In this document: positions 2,835 through 24,809 of the stretch, piece by piece
Layout of the letters: the number at the start of each line of letters is the position of its first letter
Position numbering within the stretch: the stretch's first letter is position 1
NCBI GenBank assembly: GCA_944384105.1
Contig: CALWSC010000006.1
Span: 1 to 41,034 of the forward strand
Origin: an uncultured Lachnospiraceae bacterium
GTDB taxonomy: Bacteria; Bacillota; Clostridia; Lachnospirales; Lachnospiraceae
Length of the DNA stretch: 41,034 bases
Direction: 5' to 3'
The notes under the pieces: generated by a model
What the model was told of the DNA's origin: nothing
The model's input: only the letters and a program-made list of their open reading frames with translations
The model's database searches: none
Program-made: the position numbers and the translations under genes

Positions 2835-5099
2835 TTATCTCAGGTGCCAGATATCCTGATTATACTGCTCGATGGTTCTGTCTGAAGAGAAGAATCCCGC
2901 CTTCGCGATATTGGTCAGAGCCATGCGATTCCACTTCTCTCTGTTCTCATAGTCCTCGAACATTTTCTCTTTTGTCGCGATGTACTCCTTCACGTCAAGC
3001 AGCGTCATGAACCAGTCCTTGGAGATCAGTTCCTTGTAGAGTCTTCCCAGGTTTACCGGATCTCCGAGCTTCATCAGTTCCTTGCTCACGATGAAGTCCA
3101 CGAGCTCCATGATCTGCGGGTCATTCTCGTAATAGTTTCTGGCGGAATATCCGTTTGTCGCGTACAGATCAATGACCTCATCCGGCTTCTTTCCGAAGAT
3201 ATAGATATTGTCGTCCCCTACGAGATCGCGGATCTCCACGTTTGCTCCGTCCTCAGTTCCGAGCGTCACGGCTCCGTTCAGCATAAACTTCATATTTCCT
3301 GTTCCGGAAGCCTCCTTGGAAGCCAGAGAAATCTGCTCGGACACATCGCATGCCGGGATCAGCTTCTCAGCCTTGGAGACGTTATAGTTCTCCACCATCA
3401 CAATGCGCAGATACGGGCTGACTTCCGGGTCCTTATTCACCAGCTCGCTCAGGCAGAGAATCAGGTGAATAATATCCTTCGCAATTGTGTACGCCGGAGC
3501 TGCCTTTGCTCCGAAGATCATTGTGATCGGAGTCTTTGGCAGATTGCCCTTCTTGATCTCCAGATACTTGTAAATCGCATACAGCGCGTTCATCTGCTGG
3601 CGTTTATACTCATGCAGACGCTTGATCTGGATGTCGAAGATGGAATTCGCGTTGATGTCCAGCCCCTGTGTCTCATACAGGTAGCGTTTCAGCTTTCTCT
3701 TGTTATGCGTCTTGATCTCTTCCAGGCGACGGAGTACTCCCTTATCGTCCTGATATTTTAAGAGCTCTTCCAACTTGGACGCGTCCTTCTTAAATCCATC
3801 TCCGATCAGGCTCTCGATATATTTGGAGAGCTGATGGTTGCAGTGAAGCAGCCAGCGGCGGAAGGTGATACCGTTCGTCTTATTATTGAATTTCTCCGGA
3901 TAAATATCATAGAAACACTTCAGTTCGGAATTCTTCAGAATCTCGGTGTGCAGCGCGGCAACGCCGTTTACAGAGAAGCCGTAGTGGATATCAATGTGCG
4001 CCATGTGTACGCGGTTATCCTTATCAATAATATATACCCTCTCGTCGGAATACTTCTCTCTCACCCGGCGATCCAGCTCGCGTATGATCGGCAGCAGGTG
4101 CGGCACAACCTTCTCCAGATAATGAACCGGCCATTTCTCAAGCGCCTCTGCGAGAATCGTATGGTTGGTGTAAGCACAGGTCTTTGTCACAACATCGATC
4201 GCCTCATCCATGGAGAATCCTCTCTTCTGCGTCAGAAGACGGATCAGCTCGGGGATTACCATCGTCGGATGTGTATCGTTGATCTGAATCACTGCATGAT
4301 CATACAGTCTATGCAGGTCATATCCCTTCTCATCCATCTCCTTTAAGATAAGCTGTGCGCCGTTTGAAACCATGAAGTACTGCTGGTAGATTCTAAGCAG
4401 CTGTCCCTGCTCGTCGCTGTCGTCCGGATACAGGAACAGTGTCAGATTCTTCTGCACATCATTTTTGTCGAAGGAAATGCCGTCTCTCACGATAGCGTCA
4501 TCCACACTGTCCGCGTCGAACAGATGCAGGCGGTTGCAGCCCTCTCCATAACCCGGCACATCGATATCATACATAACAGAGTGCATTGTGAAATCCTTAA
4601 ACGGCACCTCGAAGGACACACTCTGACGGTTCAGCCAGGACAGCGGAGTGATCCAAGGATTCTTCTCTTCCTTCTGCTTATTGTTCACAAACTCCTGGCG
4701 GAACAGCCCGAAGTGGTAATTCAGACCAATGCCGTCTCCCGGCAGCCCCAGATTTGCAATGGAGTCAAGGAAACATGCTGCAAGACGTCCCAGGCCGCCG
4801 TTTCCAAGAGACGGCTCCAGCTCCATTTCCTCGATCTCCGCCAGATCCTTGCCGTTCTTCTTCATGAGCTCTGCCGCCTCATCATAGAGTCCCAGATTAA
4901 TCAGGTTATTGGAGAGCAGCTTTCCGACAAGGAACTCTGCGGAAATATAGTATACCTTCTTCGGTCCCTGGTTTGCCGGGCGTCCTGCCATCGCTTCCTT
5001 CGTATACAGAAGGAGTGCCTCGTAGATCTCCTGGCGGGTGCAGTCCCTGATTGCTCTTCCGAAATGCTGCATTACGATTTCCTCTAATCTTTTCTCCAT
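2835..5099 (-). CDS. glgP: Glycogen/maltodextrin phosphorylase
   Basis: This cytosolic PLP enzyme releases glucose-1-phosphate from the non-reducing ends of glycogen or maltodextrins. It has the family landmarks in order: [13 protein letters not shown] (active-site region, about residue 93), K-R-L-H-E-Y-K-R-Q (about 490), and the PLP-lysine motif G-T-G-N-M-K with Lys604. At 754 aa it is a compact bacterial phosphorylase. The start has a good Shine-Dalgarno 10 bp after the regulator gene. It is the third gene of the malQ-lacI-glgP operon, which together breaks down alpha-1,4-glucans: MalQ rearranges chains and GlgP phosphorolyses them. Its 3' end faces the strong hairpin at 2747-2787. Confidence 0.95.
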
Positions 5100-9478: not shown

Positions 9479-10147
9479 TCATCCTCCGATTTTATATCCC
9501 ACGCCGCGCACCGTTTCGATATAATTGCCGCACTCGCCCAGCTTCTGGCGAAGTGTTCTCACATGGACATCCACGGTTCTCGTCTCTCCGTCAAAATCAT
9601 ATCCCCAGACCTGTCCCAGAAGACGGTCACGGGTCATCACAATGCCCTGGTTCTCCATCAGCGTCCGCAAAAGTTCAAACTCCTTAAGGGTCAGATTGAC
9701 TTTCTCCTCACCGGCAGTTACCTGATGGCGCTCCACCTCCATACTCAGATCCCGGAAAATAAGTATGTCATTTCTCTGGTTTCTGCTGCCTCTGCGCAGC
9801 ACCGCGCGCACCCGGGCGAGAAATTCCATCATGCCGAAGGGTTTGACAATATAATCATCAGCCCCGCAGTCCAGACCAATCACCTTATCATACTCGGAAC
9901 CCTTGGCTGTGACCATAATAACAGGAATATCCCTCGTGCGTTCTGAAGCTTTGAGTTTCTTCAGGATATCCATCCCGCTTTCTCCCGGAAGCATGATATC
10001 CAGCAGAATGAGTTCCGGCATCTCTTCCGAAAGCGCCTCTTCCATCGATGCGCCGTCCTCAAAGCCCTTTGCCTCAAAACCGCCTCCATTTAAGGTATAA
10101 ATTACGAGTTCCCGGATATTGCGCTCATCTTCTACACAGTAAATCAT
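9479..10147 (-). CDS. phoB: PhoB/PhoP-type response regulator
   Basis: This is an OmpR-type response regulator of 222 residues. The receiver domain has the acidic pair (E-D near residue 6), the phospho-acceptor Asp in L-I-L-L-D-I-M-L-P (about 49) and the K-P-F motif. The C-terminal winged helix has T-R-T-V-D-V-H-V-R-T-L-R. A longer frame exists upstream, but the start at 10147 is chosen: it overlaps the phoU stop (ATGA) and has GGAGAGGT at proper spacing, and the protein then begins directly with the receiver strand M-I-Y-C-V-E-D. It is the likely activator of the pst promoter through the Pho-box repeats at 14296-14334. Confidence 0.92.
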   Translation of the reverse strand: MIYCVEDERNIRELVIYTLNGGGFEAKGFEDGASMEEALSEEMPELILLDIMLPGESGMDILKKLKASERTRDIPVIMVTAKGSEYDKVIGLDCGADDYIVKPFGMMEFLARVRAVLRRGSRNQRNDILIFRDLSMEVERHQVTAGEEKVNLTLKEFELLRTLMENQGIVMTRDRLLGQVWGYDFDGETRTVDVHVRTLRQKLGECGNYIETVRGVGYKIGG

Positions 10148-16955: not shown

Positions 16956-16998
16956 AGCTCCCCGGTATGCAGCCATTGCCGCACCGGGGAGCTTTCTT
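16956..16998. terminator. Bidirectional terminator between apeB and alr
   Basis: An 11-bp stem AGCTCCCCGGT/ACCGGGGAGCT (16956-16966 with 16983-16993) is followed on the plus strand by TTCTT. Confidence 0.7.
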
Positions 16999-18130
16999 AC
17001 TCTGTTTCTTCATATATTCTGGGAACTCTCTTTCCGTCAATTCTGCAGATCTGCTCATAGTTGAAGCTTCCTGCCAGATTCGAGAGTTCCTCTGCAGTGA
17101 TCTCATCTTCTCCGTCGCGTCCGATCAGCGTAGCCACGTCCTCGACCTTTACATCCGGAATATGACTGACGTCCACCATCATCTGATCCATACAGACTCT
17201 CCCAAGAATGGGAGCTCTCTGCCCGTGAATCAATACGCAGCCCTTGGACGAAAGTGCCCGCGGATAACCGTCCGCATATCCTACGGAGACTGTTGCAATC
17301 CTCATTTCCCTTTCCGTCACATACGTTGCGCCGTAGCTTACACCCCTACCTGCGGGGACGTCCTTGACATGGATCACATGCGCTTTCCACTCCAGAGCCG
17401 GTTTTAAATCCAACTGCTCCTTATGTACCTCATCAGACGGATACAGACCATATGTCACAATGCCGGAACGCACCATATCGTACTGCGCCTCGTCAAGCTC
17501 CATCAGACCCGCACTGTTGCCGAGATGCTTCAGCGGGATATCAACACCGCGCTCCTCTAACATGGAAATCATGCGGTCAAACTGCGCCATCTGTTCCCTC
17601 GTAAAGCTCTGGTCATACTGATCCGCACAGGAGAGATGCGTGAAGATTCCGTCCGCGCTGATATTCTCCATAGCAGCGATCTGTGCAATCCTGTCAGCCT
17701 CCGCTTCTTCCACCTGGAAACCGATGCGGGTCATCCCCGTATCTACGGCAATGTGCACCCTCCCCTTCTTTCCGAGCCGTCCTGCCGTCTCAGAAAGCCC
17801 GGCGGCGTCTTCCAGCCGATAGACACTCTGCGCGATATCATATTGAACCAGTGTCTCATGCTCGCGTGGAGATACATATCCCAGCACCAGAATCGGGTGC
17901 TCTATTCCGTTTTCCCTCAGCTCCACAGCCTCCGGAAGCGTTGCCGTGGCATAGCAGTCCGCCAGATCGGAGAGTGCCTGTGCTACGCGCACCGCTCCGT
18001 GTCCGTAACCGTCCGCCTTGACGACAGCCATGACCTTTGTGCCGTCTGTCACACGCTTTTTTACTTCCTTTATATTATGGCGAATGGCCTCCAGATCAAT
18101 TTTCACAAAACAACGAATATACTTTTCCAT
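16997..18130 (-). CDS. alr: Alanine racemase
   Basis: This PLP-dependent enzyme interconverts L- and D-alanine for peptidoglycan synthesis. At 377 residues it has normal length. The PLP lysine is Lys38 in A-V-V-K-A-D-G-Y-G-H-G, and the opposing catalytic tyrosine is Tyr266 in G-V-S-Y-G-A-T-Y. The fold type III barrel is followed by the C-terminal beta domain. The gene is 21 bp downstream of an Lrp-type regulator on the same strand, which suggests alanine-responsive control. An alanine aminotransferase lies 5 kb away. Confidence 0.95.
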   Translation of the reverse strand: MEKYIRCFVKIDLEAIRHNIKEVKKRVTDGTKVMAVVKADGYGHGAVRVAQALSDLADCYATATLPEAVELRENGIEHPILVLGYVSPREHETLVQYDIAQSVYRLEDAAGLSETAGRLGKKGRVHIAVDTGMTRIGFQVEEAEADRIAQIAAMENISADGIFTHLSCADQYDQSFTREQMAQFDRMISMLEERGVDIPLKHLGNSAGLMELDEAQYDMVRSGIVTYGLYPSDEVHKEQLDLKPALEWKAHVIHVKDVPAGRGVSYGATYVTEREMRIATVSVGYADGYPRALSSKGCVLIHGQRAPILGRVCMDQMMVDVSHIPDVKVEDVATLIGRDGEDEITAEELSNLAGSFNYEQICRIDGKRVPRIYEETE

Positions 18131-18151
18131 GCTGCCCTTCTTTCCCGCTTC

Positions 18152-18607
18152 CTACTTCTCTGCTTTCGGTATTGCGGTATAAATATTTTTTACATTTTTA
18201 AGAACTACATGCGTTCTTGTGGCGGATACTCCCTCAAAGCCCATAAGCTTTCTGTGAATCCCCTCCAGAGCCTCCGGGGAACTGCAGGAAATCTTCATCA
18301 GGAAATCAAAATCCCCGGTCTGGTAATAGCATGATACGATCTCATCAAATTCCTGAAGCTTTTCCGTAAAGGAGTCGTAATACTTCGGGTGCTCCAGACT
18401 GACCTCCATTAAAGCGGTCATATGATTCCCCGTAAGCTTGTCGTCCACAATAATGGTATAGTTCTTAATCACGCCCGTATCCTCCATCTTTCGGATGCGT
18501 TCAATAACGGCAGACACAGACAGATGAATAGACTTGCTGATATTGGATGCAGTTTCACGGGCATTCTTCTGCAATATTCTCAGTATCTTATAATCAATAT
18601 TATCCAA
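18152..18607 (-). CDS. Lrp/AsnC-family transcriptional regulator
   Basis: This is a 151-residue feast/famine regulator. It has an N-terminal helix-turn-helix (I-D-Y-K-I-L-R-I-L-Q-K-N-A-R onward, about residues 4-55) and a C-terminal RAM/AsnC ligand-binding domain (about 70-145) with G-x-x-D-F-L-M-K-I. Such proteins bind DNA as octamers and usually respond to an amino acid. Its position directly ahead of alr suggests that it senses alanine or a related amino acid and may regulate alr and itself; this is inference from linkage. Confidence 0.9.
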   Translation of the reverse strand: MDNIDYKILRILQKNARETASNISKSIHLSVSAVIERIRKMEDTGVIKNYTIIVDDKLTGNHMTALMEVSLEHPKYYDSFTEKLQEFDEIVSCYYQTGDFDFLMKISCSSPEALEGIHRKLMGFEGVSATRTHVVLKNVKNIYTAIPKAEK

Positions 18608-21283: not shown

Positions 21284-21655
21284 ATGGCATGGAACCTGAC
21301 TTCCGACAGACCCATTTATATTCAGCTCGTCGAGAAGCTTCAGCTCGACATCATCACAGGAAGCTACCGGCTCGGCGAGAAGCTGCCCTCCGTGAGGGAT
21401 CTCGCCTCAGAGGCGGCGGTCAATCCCAATACAATGCAGAAAGCTCTCACAGAGCTGGAGCGCAGCGGTCTTGTATATACGCAGAGAACCGCAGGACGTT
21501 TTGTCACTGACGATCCGGCTCTGATCCGGAGCATACGCAGAGATCTCGCCGCATCACATATCCGCGATTTTATCCGAACCATGCGTCAATTCGATATGAG
21601 TGATGATGAGATTCTGCATCTGATAGAGGAAATTATGAAGGAGGAGATAGAATGA
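21284..21655 (+). CDS. GntR-family (YtrA subfamily) transcriptional regulator
   Basis: This is a 123-residue regulator with a winged helix (about residues 8-72) containing Y-I-Q-L-V-E-K-L, G-E-K-L-P-S-V-R-D-L-A, and V-N-P-N-T-M-Q-K-A-L-x-E-L-E. Only a short C-terminal helical dimer arm follows, which is the mark of the YtrA subfamily. It has a strong AGGAGG and overlaps the ABC ATPase gene by 4 bp. In this subfamily the regulator represses its own operon with an ABC transporter, often induced by cell-envelope antibiotics; that trigger is inferred. Confidence 0.92.
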   Translation: MAWNLTSDRPIYIQLVEKLQLDIITGSYRLGEKLPSVRDLASEAAVNPNTMQKALTELERSGLVYTQRTAGRFVTDDPALIRSIRRDLAASHIRDFIRTMRQFDMSDDEILHLIEEIMKEEIE

Positions 21656-22350
21656 AGGAACTTGTCACCTGCAAAAACCTTACCAAACAATACGGTAGCA
21701 AGCTGGCACTGAACAATATCAACCTTTCCCTGGAGCCCGGAAAGATCATCGGTCTGCTGGGTCCCAACGGAAGCGGAAAGACAACACTGATCAAGATTTT
21801 GAATCAGCTCACTTTTCCCACATCGGGCGAAGTCCTTATTGCCGGAAATCCCCTGTCTGTAACTACCAAATCGCTGATCTCGTATCTGCCGGACCGCATG
21901 TATCTCGGCAACTGGATGCACGTATCGGACGCCCTGGATTTCTTTTCGGACTTCTATACGGATTTCGACCGCAGCCGCGCACAGGATATGCTCAGCAAGC
22001 TGAATATCCGTCTCTCGGATACAATCCGCGCGATGTCAAAGGGAACGAAGGAGAAGCTGCAGCTTATTCTCGTGATGAGCCGGAGAGCGGCCCTCTACTG
22101 CCTCGACGAACCCATCGCGGGCGTAGACCCGGCGGCGCGCGATTATATTCTCTCAACAATATTAAATAACTACGCCCCGGATGCCGCAATTCTGATCTCC
22201 ACGCATCTGATCAGCGATATTGAGAATATTCTTGATGAGGTCATCTTTATCCGGGACGGAGCAATCGTCCTGCAGTCATCTGTAGACGATCTTCGCATCC
22301 AGAACGGCAAGTCCGTCGACCACGTATTCAGGGAGGTGTTCAAATGTTAG
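21652..22350 (+). CDS. ABC transporter ATP-binding protein (YtrB/BcrA type)
   Basis: This is the ATPase of an exporter-type ABC system, 232 residues. Walker A is G-P-N-G-S-G-K-T-T (about residues 37-45) and Walker B is A-L-Y-C-L-D-E-P (about 148-155) with the D-loop G-V-D-P. The signature is the degenerate M-S-K-G-T-K-E-K rather than L-S-G-G-Q, as seen in regulator-linked transporters of the YtrB kind. The switch histidine is in I-S-T-H-L-I. It overlaps the upstream regulator (4 bp) and the downstream permease (7 bp), so all three are co-translated. Confidence 0.92.
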   Translation: MKELVTCKNLTKQYGSKLALNNINLSLEPGKIIGLLGPNGSGKTTLIKILNQLTFPTSGEVLIAGNPLSVTTKSLISYLPDRMYLGNWMHVSDALDFFSDFYTDFDRSRAQDMLSKLNIRLSDTIRAMSKGTKEKLQLILVMSRRAALYCLDEPIAGVDPAARDYILSTILNNYAPDAAILISTHLISDIENILDEVIFIRDGAIVLQSSVDDLRIQNGKSVDHVFREVFKC

Positions 22351-23147
22351 GAAAATTATTGAAATATGACTGGAAGTACAGTTGGAGGCTGCTTGCCCTG
22401 TTAAACGGCGCACTGCTTATCTTCTCTCTTCTCGGGCAGCTTGGCTCCCGCGTCCTGTGGCACGGCAGTGAGATGATCTCCAGCATGCTGGCTGCCCTCT
22501 ATGTATTTATTTATGTGCTGCTTTTCTCAGGATCTCTGATTGCGACGCAGATCATTCTGGTTGTGCGGTATTATAAGAATTTCTACACCGACGAGGGCTA
22601 TCTGCTGCACACGCTTCCGGTAACAACCGGCGAGAAAATATGGGCAAAGTTCATCAACCATACACTCTGGACGATTATCAATATTGCCTGCCTGATGTTC
22701 TCTGTCTTATGCCTTTTAGGTCCGGCAGAATGGGGGAATTTCTTCAACCTGTTTCCCAAATTTTTCTCATCCCTTTCCTCCGCGCTGAATCTTCCGGCCG
22801 CCGTAGTCGTTATCGCTGCTCTTGCCGCAGTGCTGCTGTCACTTGCCTTTATGATTTACTCACTGTATTTCTGCATAAGCGTCGGAAGTCTGTTCCCGTC
22901 ACACAGGGTCATCGCTTCCATTGTCACATATGTGGTTCTCTATTGTGTCATACAGTTCGGCGCGTTCGCATACCTTATCAGCAGCACACTGTTTATTGAT
23001 CGGAGAATGTATGGCGCCCACCCCGCTTCCGCTTCCGGAACGTTCGGAATCGTATATACAGGCGGTATGCTCCTGCTTCTTGCAGGCAGCGCTCTATTCT
23101 ACGGTTTCAGCTACTATGCAGCAGATAAGAAGTTAAATTTGGACTGA
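22344..23147 (+). CDS. ABC transporter permease
   Basis: This is a 267-residue membrane protein with about six hydrophobic segments (near residues 18-34, 50-75, 105-127, 145-175, 185-210 and 230-253). It starts inside the end of the ATPase gene. No substrate-binding protein is present, so the pair is probably an exporter or an antimicrobial-peptide or envelope-stress detoxification module under the GntR-type regulator. Sequence alone does not identify the cargo. Confidence 0.85.
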   Translation: MLGKLLKYDWKYSWRLLALLNGALLIFSLLGQLGSRVLWHGSEMISSMLAALYVFIYVLLFSGSLIATQIILVVRYYKNFYTDEGYLLHTLPVTTGEKIWAKFINHTLWTIINIACLMFSVLCLLGPAEWGNFFNLFPKFFSSLSSALNLPAAVVVIAALAAVLLSLAFMIYSLYFCISVGSLFPSHRVIASIVTYVVLYCVIQFGAFAYLISSTLFIDRRMYGAHPASASGTFGIVYTGGMLLLLAGSALFYGFSYYAADKKLNLD

Positions 23148-23200: not shown

Positions 23201-23291
23201 ATTGAACTTTTTACTTTTTATTGAACTTCTTAATTTTAATATTGAACTTATCCAAAAGGTGTGCTATCATGTGTTTATGTAAATTGAACTT
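23201..23291 (+). repeat. Four direct repeats of ATTGAACTT around the xre-alaA promoter
   Basis: Exact 9-bp copies start at 23201, 23220, 23241 and 23283. Start-to-start spacings are 19, 21 and 42 bp, i.e. about two, two and four helical turns, so all copies face the same side of the DNA. The third overlaps the -35 and the fourth lies between the promoter and the ribosome binding site. They are likely binding sites for a regulator, probably the XRE domain encoded immediately downstream. Confidence 0.8.
23242..23270 (+). promoter_or_regulatory. Promoter of the xre-alaA fusion gene
   Basis: TTGAAC (23242-23247, inside repeat 3), a 17-bp spacer and TATCAT (23265-23270). Confidence 0.65.
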
Positions 23292-23306
23292 CCGGAGGAA
23301 ACATAG

Positions 23307-24809
23307 ATGTCAAAAGAGATTTTTGCACAGAGACTCAGGGCAGCAATGGACCGGCAGGGCAAAAAGCAGGTGGATATTATCCGCATGGCATCTGAGCAGG
23401 GCGTGAAGCTCGGCAAGAGCCATATGAGCCAGTATGTCAGCGGCAAGACCGTCCCGCGCGCGGATCTTCTGCATTTTCTCGCAGAGGCGCTGCAGGTAGA
23501 TGAGGACTGGTTAAAGGGCAGGACACCTGCTGGGGAACCGGAAGCTGCTGATCAGGAAAGCAAGAGAGAAATGATAGCTTTAGGAGGAATAAAAATGCGG
23601 GAATTTAAGAAATCTTCAAAACTGAACAATGTATTATACGACGTCAGAGGTCCGGTTGTGGATGAGGCGGAGCGAATGGAGGAAGCCGGCACTCAGATTC
23701 TGAAGCTCAATATAGGCAACCCGGCGCCTTTTGGATTTCATACGCCGGACGAGGTTATCTATGATATGCGCCGCCAGCTTACAGAGTGTGAAGGCTATTC
23801 TCCGGCAAAAGGACTCTTTGCTGCGAGAAAGGCGATTATGCAGTACGCACAGTTAAAGAAGATTCCAAATGTTACAATCGAAGACATTTATACAGGAAAC
23901 GGCGTCAGTGAACTTATTAATCTGTGTATGTCGGCGCTGCTTGACGACGGAGATGAGATTCTGATTCCGTCCCCGGATTACCCGCTGTGGACAGCGTGCG
24001 CGACACTTGCAGGCGGAAAGGCCGTCCACTACATCTGCGACGAGCAGTCTGACTGGTTCCCGGACCTCGACGATATACGCAGCAAGATTACAGACAGAAC
24101 GAAAGCGATCGTTATTATAAATCCGAATAACCCCACGGGTGCACTCTACTCCCGTGATGTGCTCCAGGGTATTGTAGATATCGCCAGGGAGCATCAGCTC
24201 ATCATTTTCTCCGATGAGATTTATGACCGGCTTGTCATGGATGGCGAAAAGCACATCTCTATCGCTTCTCTGGCGCCGGATCTGTTCTGCGTGACATACA
24301 GCGGTCTTTCCAAATCCCACATGATCGCGGGGTTCCGCATCGGATGGATGATTTTGAGCGGTAATAAGAAGATGGCAGCAGATTATATTGAAGGTCTTAA
24401 AATGCTCTCGAATATGCGTCTCTGCTCCAATGTTCCGGCACAGTCTATCGTGCAGACAGCCCTCGGCGGTTACCAGAGCGTTGAGAATTATATTGTTCCG
24501 GGAGGACGCATCTACGAACAGCGTGAGTTTATCTACAATGCTCTGACTGACATCCCGGGCATCACCTGTGTGAAGCCGAAAGCAGCCTTCTATATGTTCC
24601 CGCGGATCGATATCCAGAAGTTCAACATCACCAATGACGAGCAATTCGCTCTGGATCTGCTTCGCGATAAGAAGATCCTGCTGATCCACGGCGGCGGATT
24701 CAACTGGCATCAGCCTGATCACTTCCGCGTCGTATATCTGCCGCGTATCGAAGTACTGAAAGAATGCGCGGAGAAAATGGCTGATTTCTTCAGCTATTAC
24801 CATCAGTAA
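23307..24809 (+). CDS. XRE-type DNA-binding domain fused to AlaA-like alanine aminotransferase
   Basis: This is a 500-residue fusion. Residues about 6-72 form an XRE/Cro helix-turn-helix with K-Q-V-D-I-I-R-M-A and H-M-S-Q-Y-V-S-G-K-T-V-P-R-A-D. After a linker, residue 97 onward matches a whole E. coli AlaA-type fold I aminotransferase: S-S-K-L-N-N-V-L-Y-D-V-R-G-P, I-G-N-P-A-P-F-G-F, the PLP-site P-N-N-P-T-G, and the Schiff-base Lys336 in G-L-S-K-S. It would convert pyruvate plus glutamate to alanine plus 2-oxoglutarate. GGAGG precedes the start at 23307. Inside the gene AGGAGG (23582-23587) stands 7 nt before an in-frame ATG (23595), so a 404-residue stand-alone aminotransferase could also be made. 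The four ATTGAACTT repeats upstream suggest autoregulation. Confidence 0.9.
   Translation: MSKEIFAQRLRAAMDRQGKKQVDIIRMASEQGVKLGKSHMSQYVSGKTVPRADLLHFLAEALQVDEDWLKGRTPAGEPEAADQESKREMIALGGIKMREFKKSSKLNNVLYDVRGPVVDEAERMEEAGTQILKLNIGNPAPFGFHTPDEVIYDMRRQLTECEGYSPAKGLFAARKAIMQYAQLKKIPNVTIEDIYTGNGVSELINLCMSALLDDGDEILIPSPDYPLWTACATLAGGKAVHYICDEQSDWFPDLDDIRSKITDRTKAIVIINPNNPTGALYSRDVLQGIVDIAREHQLIIFSDEIYDRLVMDGEKHISIASLAPDLFCVTYSGLSKSHMIAGFRIGWMILSGNKKMAADYIEGLKMLSNMRLCSNVPAQSIVQTALGGYQSVENYIVPGGRIYEQREFIYNALTDIPGITCVKPKAAFYMFPRIDIQKFNITNDEQFALDLLRDKKILLIHGGGFNWHQPDHFRVVYLPRIEVLKECAEKMADFFSYYHQ

Follow-up and report, generated by a model that had tools for sequence, protein, structure and literature searches.

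A phage CI-type DNA-binding domain fused to the alanine aminotransferase AlaA in Lachnospiraceae, with a putative operator array at its own promoter

Trigger enzymes, such as PutA, BirA and NadR, are enzymes and transcription regulators in one chain. The evolution of enzymes into regulators has mostly been inferred from end points, such as the MocR proteins, whose aminotransferase-like domains mostly gave up catalysis. AlaA converts glutamate and pyruvate into 2-oxoglutarate and alanine, and the reverse. MocR operators are formed by direct repeats set whole helical turns apart, as described in passages of PMC5320631. In BzdR, an XRE domain is joined by a linker to a shikimate-kinase-like domain, the sensor of benzoyl-CoA (passages of PMC3602430).

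The gene described here, found in an uncultured Lachnospiraceae bacterium, has the same layout as MocR, GabR and PdxR, an N-terminal DNA-binding domain followed by a class I aminotransferase fold, and its putative operator is similarly made of direct repeats at whole helical turns. The comparison with MocR proteins made in an earlier, sequence-only reading of this DNA is a good analogy, in view of the direct repeats on a single helix face. The fusion itself is not a MocR protein: the DNA-binding domain is of the GntR type in MocR, GabR and PdxR, and of the phage CI/XRE type here. The fusion differs from MocR proteins also for its complete AlaA active site, its internal start, and because no second target was found. 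Like BzdR, it carries an XRE domain connected by a linker to an enzyme fold, but the active site is kept. Compared to PutA, BirA and NadR, both the enzyme and the DNA-binding domain are different, and the gene itself is the only putative target found. Catalytic residues and a putative operator are present. The DNA-binding domain is homologous to the N-terminal domain of the CI repressors of TP901-1 and phi13, and the site core, AGTTCA, is the same. The C-terminal dimerisation/oligomerisation part of CI is replaced by AlaA in the fusion, and CI half-sites are inverted pairs, whereas the octamers of the fusion are direct phased repeats. E. coli AlaA (4cvq) is homologous to residues 97-500 and features the same key residues, including the plug residues Tyr15, Arg18 and Pro20, but lacks a DNA-binding domain. 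No description of XRE/CI-AlaA fusions was found among the papers listed in searches of the open-access literature.

The fused gene and its enzyme part

The window, i.e. the whole stretch of 41,034 nucleotides analysed, is contig 6 of a genome assembled in 123 contigs and 78% complete. The fused gene is organized as follows.

23294-23298, plus strand: GGAGG, ribosome-binding site of the fused gene
23307-24809, plus strand: fused gene, CI-type helix-turn-helix (HTH) plus AlaA aminotransferase, 500 amino acids and stop (open reading frame, Pfam, structure-database match)
23322-23522, plus strand: phage CI-type DNA-binding domain, residues 6-72 (Pfam and profile matches)
23523-23594, plus strand: linker, residues 73-96, varying in length and sequence among relatives
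23582-23587, plus strand: internal Shine-Dalgarno (SD) sequence AGGAGG, conserved at junctions
23595-24809, plus strand: AlaA domain; the ATG at 23595 is a conserved putative internal start, for a stand-alone form of 404 amino acids
24809-24852, plus strand: hairpin resembling an intrinsic terminator, 20 pairs counted

The single frame joining a Cro/XRE HTH to a complete AlaA (500 codons without stop), and the AGGAGG placed 7 nt ahead of an in-frame ATG, had both been noted in the sequence-only reading, and are exact to the base. The terminal hairpin suggests a one-gene transcript, of which the fused gene is therefore probably the sole gene.

The Pfam model Aminotran_1_2 covers residues 130-479 (E 1.4e-54), and E. 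coli AlaA (4cvq) matches residues 97-500 over its full length (E 3.3e-175). The best NCBIfam model is PRK08363, alanine aminotransferase, with a score of 367 that is under the curated threshold of 534. HTH_31 matches residues 6-67 (E 5.9e-5) with 23.7 bits, below the 27-bit cut-off, and the HTH is therefore weak by Pfam alone. No GntR model was found among the Pfam matches of the fused protein up to E 1.

Nineteen positions of the enzyme part were checked, and none varies among the 92 fused sequences compared (14 from the family sample, 74 from named genomes and 4 from other families, five contigs being counted twice). Among them are K336 (the PLP lysine), R474 (the substrate arginine), and Y111, R114 and P116 (the plug), which bears out the earlier claim that catalytic residues are kept. 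N179, D207, S237 and R248 were labelled as enzyme positions, and the label of S237 is wrong, since AlaA likewise has Gly there. Fifteen of the 19 positions are residues named for AlaA in passages of PMC4094517; compared to the AlaA residues given there, the changes are conservative, I17V, I213L and L332F, and every catalytic residue is kept. According to the same passages, the N-terminal arm of AlaA contributes to dimer formation, and the plug (Tyr15, Ile17, Arg18) folds over the bound substrate mimic. The HTH linker attaches to this arm, and a signal might pass along the linker and the arm.

Distribution and descent of the fusion

In a family sample of 150 genomes from 149 genera, alaA-like genes at least 48% identical were found at 40 places in 39 genomes. 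At 14 of these places (14 genomes, 13 genera, own included) the gene carries in frame an HTH 47-100% identical to that of the window. Named genomes were scanned with an HTH alignment, and the best 80 of 256 coding matches were kept: 79 of these 80 loci are in-frame AlaA fusions, an association beyond chance. The sole non-fused locus of the best 80 is L096, where a frameshift breaks the frame. In this locus, from [Ruminococcus] faecis JCM 15917, the HTH starts at 4001 and the frameshift falls between HTH and AlaA; it may be a draft error or a real loss. The two sets overlap and are not independent, as L007/L040, L008/L072, L009/L051, L010/L075 and L013/L114 are, judging by length, the same contigs. 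The nearest relative found among named genomes, L039, is from an uncultured Lachnospiraceae bacterium; genera in the record names of fused loci include Blautia, Mediterraneibacter, Roseburia and Anaerostipes.

A class sample of 391 genomes gave 44 matches (own included) at E 1e-100 or better. Of the 30 loci inspected, 5 are fused (own plus four from other families) and 25 are stand-alone (one from the own family); the remaining 14 matches were judged by alignment start alone (residue 89 or later). In a phylum sample of 398 genomes, none of the 28 matches besides the own extends into the HTH.

A tree of 89 AlaA sequences (38 fused, 51 stand-alone, named loci thinned to about every third) gathers all fused sequences into a single clade with support 97/98, which arises from among the stand-alone sequences. 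The four fused sequences of other families fall inside this clade, the pattern expected of horizontal transfer. Two sequences in the same region lack the HTH, and also octamers: L019 is inside the fused clade, under a branch with support 99/98, and L021 is at the unresolved base of the clade, and may predate the fusion. The tree requires three changes; well-supported branches impose two of them.

The fusion is old and under selection, and purifying selection acts on both domains. Median dN/dS values (82 pairs, dS 0.1-0.9) are 0.07 for the HTH, pairs with an undefined ratio being omitted, and 0.02 for AlaA. HTH and AlaA distances correlate (r 0.61 over 71 loci; 0 of 2000 permutations as high), the HTH having the standard length in 71 of 74 complete loci. 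A recent accident or an assembly error is ruled out by the presence of the fusion in 14 genomes of 13 genera in the 150-genome sample, and is also countered by the 79 fusions in the best 80 of 256 matches and by the selection on the HTH. A frameshifted or missing HTH in close relatives had been regarded in the sequence-only reading as a sign against a functional fusion. In close relatives the HTH is intact and under purifying selection; it is absent in L019 and L021.

Within 4 kb on each side of the 80 loci, the neighbours of the fused gene of the window are common only to L039 and L040, one weak ABC match at L106 being the only other likeness. Just upstream of the gene, at 21284-23147 (plus strand), three overlapping genes seem to encode a GntR-type regulator, an ABC ATPase and a membrane protein. 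At 16997-18607 (minus strand), about 5 kb from the fused alanine aminotransferase, an alanine racemase-like gene is located directly downstream of an Lrp/AsnC-type regulator-like gene, as judged from translations. Free-standing proteins with HTHs 48% and 40% identical to that of the window are encoded by L165 and L166 (open frames of 129 and 159 amino acids), in genomes where alaA is not fused.

The octamer array and the CI-type domain

Neither the array described below nor the kinship of the HTH with phage CI had been mentioned in the sequence-only reading. The region upstream of the fused gene includes the following elements.

23202-23209, plus strand: octamer 1, TTGAACTT, about 40 bp upstream of the -35 copy
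23221-23228, plus strand: octamer 2, TTGAACTT, 21 bp upstream of the -35 copy
23242-23249, plus strand: octamer 3, TTGAACTT, the first six bases being the -35 hexamer
23242-23270, plus strand: sigma-70-type promoter, TTGAAC - 17 nt - TATCAT (9 of 12 consensus matches, extended -10 TG)
23284-23291, plus strand: octamer 4, TTGAACTT, 42 bp downstream of the -35 copy, just past the inferred transcription start

Four exact copies of ATTGAACTT are thus found between 23201 and 23291, and no further exact copy in the 41 kb. Single octamers are located elsewhere in the window at 9671 and 24618, both on the minus strand. Allowing one mismatch gives 17 matches in the window vs 11.9 expected, no clear enrichment. 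In the 2.93 Mb searched of the own genome, octamer pairs 4-34 nt apart occur only at the fused gene (three pairs; none in the backwards control). In 13 other genomes with the fusion 25 pairs were found, vs 5 in the control; 21 are at the fused gene, in 10 of the 13 genomes, and the other four are away from it, each in a different genome. The 25 genomes whose alaA is stand-alone gave 7 pairs, vs 6 in the control, and no pair was located at alaA.

Upstream sequences of at least 120 nt were available for 79 of the best 80 of 256 loci, the frameshifted L096 included and L045, with only 70, left out. The octamer precedes the gene in 78 of the 79, with 259 copies (250 forward, 9 reverse) vs 2.6 expected, and is the most widespread 8-mer in these regions with no prior choice of the word. 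L110 has no octamer, and L083, L087 and L112 have one each. When loci are grouped at 95% AlaA identity, the octamer is present in 42 of 42 groups, and in two or more copies in 40 of them. It was not found upstream of any of the 26 stand-alone alaA genes in the 25 genomes (for two of these genes the upstream sequence is just about 80 nt), nor of the 25 stand-alone genes of the class sample. HTH and array are both present in the four fused genes of other families. Among the genes examined, the array is confined to fused alaA genes. One genome (G028) has both a fused alaA with the array (L010) and a second, stand-alone alaA without octamers (L119). In one of the loci of other families (L131) three reverse octamers and one forward precede the fused gene, unlike the direct arrays found elsewhere.

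Successive octamers are spaced by multiples of about 10.5 bp: the vector length is 0.595 (143 spacings, 63 distinct patterns), and at most 0.356 in 5000 jittered controls. The motif TTGAAC - 17 nt - TANNNT is found upstream in 70 of the 79 loci, and in 59 of these 70 the hexamer is part of a full octamer. Counting spacers per copy, 17 nt accounts for 63 of 211, and the next best, 12 nt, for 32 of 221. Apart from the -35 copy, the octamers of relatives are concentrated about 20, 41 and 51 bp upstream of it and 41-43 bp downstream. TTGAAC resembles a -35 box, which could inflate the number of single copies, but neither copies elsewhere nor the trailing TT.

The best solved relatives of a profile of the 14 fused HTHs are four chains of the N-terminal domain of TP901-1 CI (E about 1e-18); the window HTH matches the profile with E 1.1e-18 and, taken alone, the same four chains, at best with E 1.4e-8. 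One of the chains is in a complex with DNA (passages of PMC11149083). The HTH of the early-branching L017 matched 91 phage records, all under 60% identity; the matches listed share 54-58% identity, and phi13 is among them, as are several phages of Streptococcus and Staphylococcus. A four-residue insertion of CI is retained in L016 and L017.

According to passages of PMC8516035, the half-site consensus of TP901-1 and phi13 CI is AGTTCAYR, and phi13 CI binds AGTTGAYR mutants weakly. On the other strand the octamer reads AAGTTCAA: the core AGTTCA is identical to the CI half-site, and the following YR is unmatched. The structure 3ZHI is a binding-impaired CI in which a Gln and an Asn are both changed. 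Gln42, the aligned counterpart of this Gln, does not vary among fused HTHs (14 of 14 and 54 of 54), whereas the counterpart of the Asn varies. The three genomes of the genus of G058 all have LSKSQMSQYLSGR as recognition region and [AG]TAAACTT as upstream repeats; the octamer is absent in two of the three and present in G536 as one reverse copy. Recognition region and repeats appear here to have changed together, a co-change which supports a match between the two and does not prove it, because seen in one clade only. The recognition region of L131 also has KSQ, yet the octamer is kept.

Probable autoregulation and alternative readings

It had been proposed that the fusion controls its own gene, and this is probable, given the conservation of the fusion and the putative operator array. 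Support comes from the octamers, which mark fused and not stand-alone alaA genes, and from the CI relative, because it binds AGTTCA half-sites. A point against an operator is that phage half-sites are inverted pairs, and octamers are nearly all direct. The CI-type domain, joined via the linker to the N-terminal arm of AlaA, would bind the array of TTGAACTT at its own promoter, and such binding is considered very likely. As AlaA is a dimer, two tethered DNA-binding domains could grip two octamers on the same face. Since copies lie on the -35 box and just past the inferred transcription start, binding would most likely repress the gene, and repression is preferred with good confidence to activation. 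From the same mRNA, the internal start would yield AlaA without the DNA-binding domain. On the whole, the fusion is probably an autoregulating trigger enzyme, convergent with MocR regulators.

The protein may be a plain homeostat, repressing its gene according to its amount only and keeping the enzyme level constant, AlaA providing dimerisation and catalysis and no sensing. This is quite conceivable, if somewhat short of an even chance: no second target recurs, as pure self-limitation predicts, and wide linker variation (80-155 codons from HTH start to AlaA start among fused loci) does not suit a finely tuned signal path, but the HTH sits on the AlaA arm that closes over the substrate mimic (passages of PMC4094517), an obvious path for a signal. 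A response to substrate or cofactor state, and not to protein amount alone, comes close to an even chance. The PLP or PMP form of the enzyme, and the balance of alanine/pyruvate and glutamate/2-oxoglutarate, would be the state sensed. Mixed dimers with the internally started free AlaA would have one DNA-binding domain only, and a dampening role for them is advanced tentatively. The complete version, an independent PLP-enzyme regulator with catalysis kept, in which the enzyme state sets the grip on the array and mixed dimers with free AlaA weaken it, is rather unlikely.

Synthesis of the short form would depend on the start at the junction. ATG is found there in 77 of 79 fused loci (best 80 of 256), and in 76 junctions it is accompanied by an SD-like core (GGAGG in 43, GGGGG in 17, GGAGA in 15, AGGAG in 1), at 7-8 nt from the ATG in 72 of the 76. 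By a stricter rule without GGGGG, the SD is present in 59 of 79. Among the other fused loci, ATG and its GGAGG are placed one codon earlier in L132, and the codon in L130 is GTG. SD and ATG could be an unused relic of the start of the ancestral stand-alone alaA, or merely encode Gly-Gly. The fused clade is indeed nested among stand-alone genes starting at the same place, the junctions of L110, L111 and L112 lack ATG or core, L018 and L133, of the other fused loci, have no start there, and a synonymous recoding test run per locus is below 0.05 in just 13 of 73. Other observations speak against a relic. In 73 complete loci, the mean pairing with the anti-SD is -9.6 kcal/mol, vs -6.8 for synonymous recodings, -3.4 for other HTH/linker windows and -8.4 for the 26 stand-alone alaA genes. 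In 44 representatives the mean is -10.0, beyond all 500 simulated means (lowest -8.5), and 43 of the 44 pair more strongly than the mean of their own recodings. The same SD rule is satisfied by 52 of 73 junction ATGs vs 19 of 1014 other in-frame ATGs. GGA or GGG is the codon of 107 of the 112 Gly residues at the junction, vs 986 of 1990 in AlaA. The core of six loci is read in a clearly different phase, and encodes other amino acids. The internal SD thus appears to be conserved beyond what amino acids require, and the relic is an unlikely explanation; the internal start is likely functional, and translation of the short form from it can be expected with some assurance. L112 (Blautia sp. MSJ-9, from 3998) has kept the fusion, but its junction ATG and SD are lost and only one octamer is present; it is a natural test of the need for the short form.

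Self-repression has been weighed also against activation, by which the fusion would aid RNA polymerase from the upstream copies and raise its own expression. In favour, octamers are found at least 20 bp upstream of the -35 copy in most arrays, and the -10 and the 17-nt spacer are good. In contrast, the -35 box is covered by a copy (by a full octamer in 59 of 70 loci having this promoter), further copies are concentrated in the transcribed leader, 41-43 bp downstream of the box, and the relative CI represses through promoter occupancy, all of which makes an activator improbable. That the array belongs to another regulator or is a mere promoter feature, the fused HTH binding elsewhere or being a passenger, is most improbable: TTGAAC is near the -35 consensus, and single octamers are found at -35 positions before unrelated genes, but the octamer accompanies the HTH in 78 of 79 loci (best 80 of 256) and none of 51 stand-alone alaA genes, L019 and L021 lack both and the four fused genes of other families have both, neighbouring genes differ among loci, the solved HTH relative binds AGTTCA half-sites (passages of PMC8516035), and dN/dS of the HTH is 0.07.

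A wider regulon is unsupported. Promoters with the octamer as -35 number 21 in 7 genomes with the fusion (9 in the backwards control), and 7 of these are at the fused gene; 12 of the 14 other sites (all but L193 and L199) were read, and have unrelated genes or none downstream. In both genomes of the own genus a single octamer is found as -35 before a fructokinase-like gene (L195 and L189), perhaps because of the -35 resemblance. No second target recurs in the own, other fused or stand-alone-alaA genomes searched.

Stand-alone, fused and apparently lost forms coexist in one bacterial family. With a putative operator known to the exact base and structures of CI with DNA at hand, the transition from enzyme to regulator would be directly testable. 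If the reading of an autoregulating AlaA is true, the fusion would be a compact, one-gene homeostasis device in gut bacteria.
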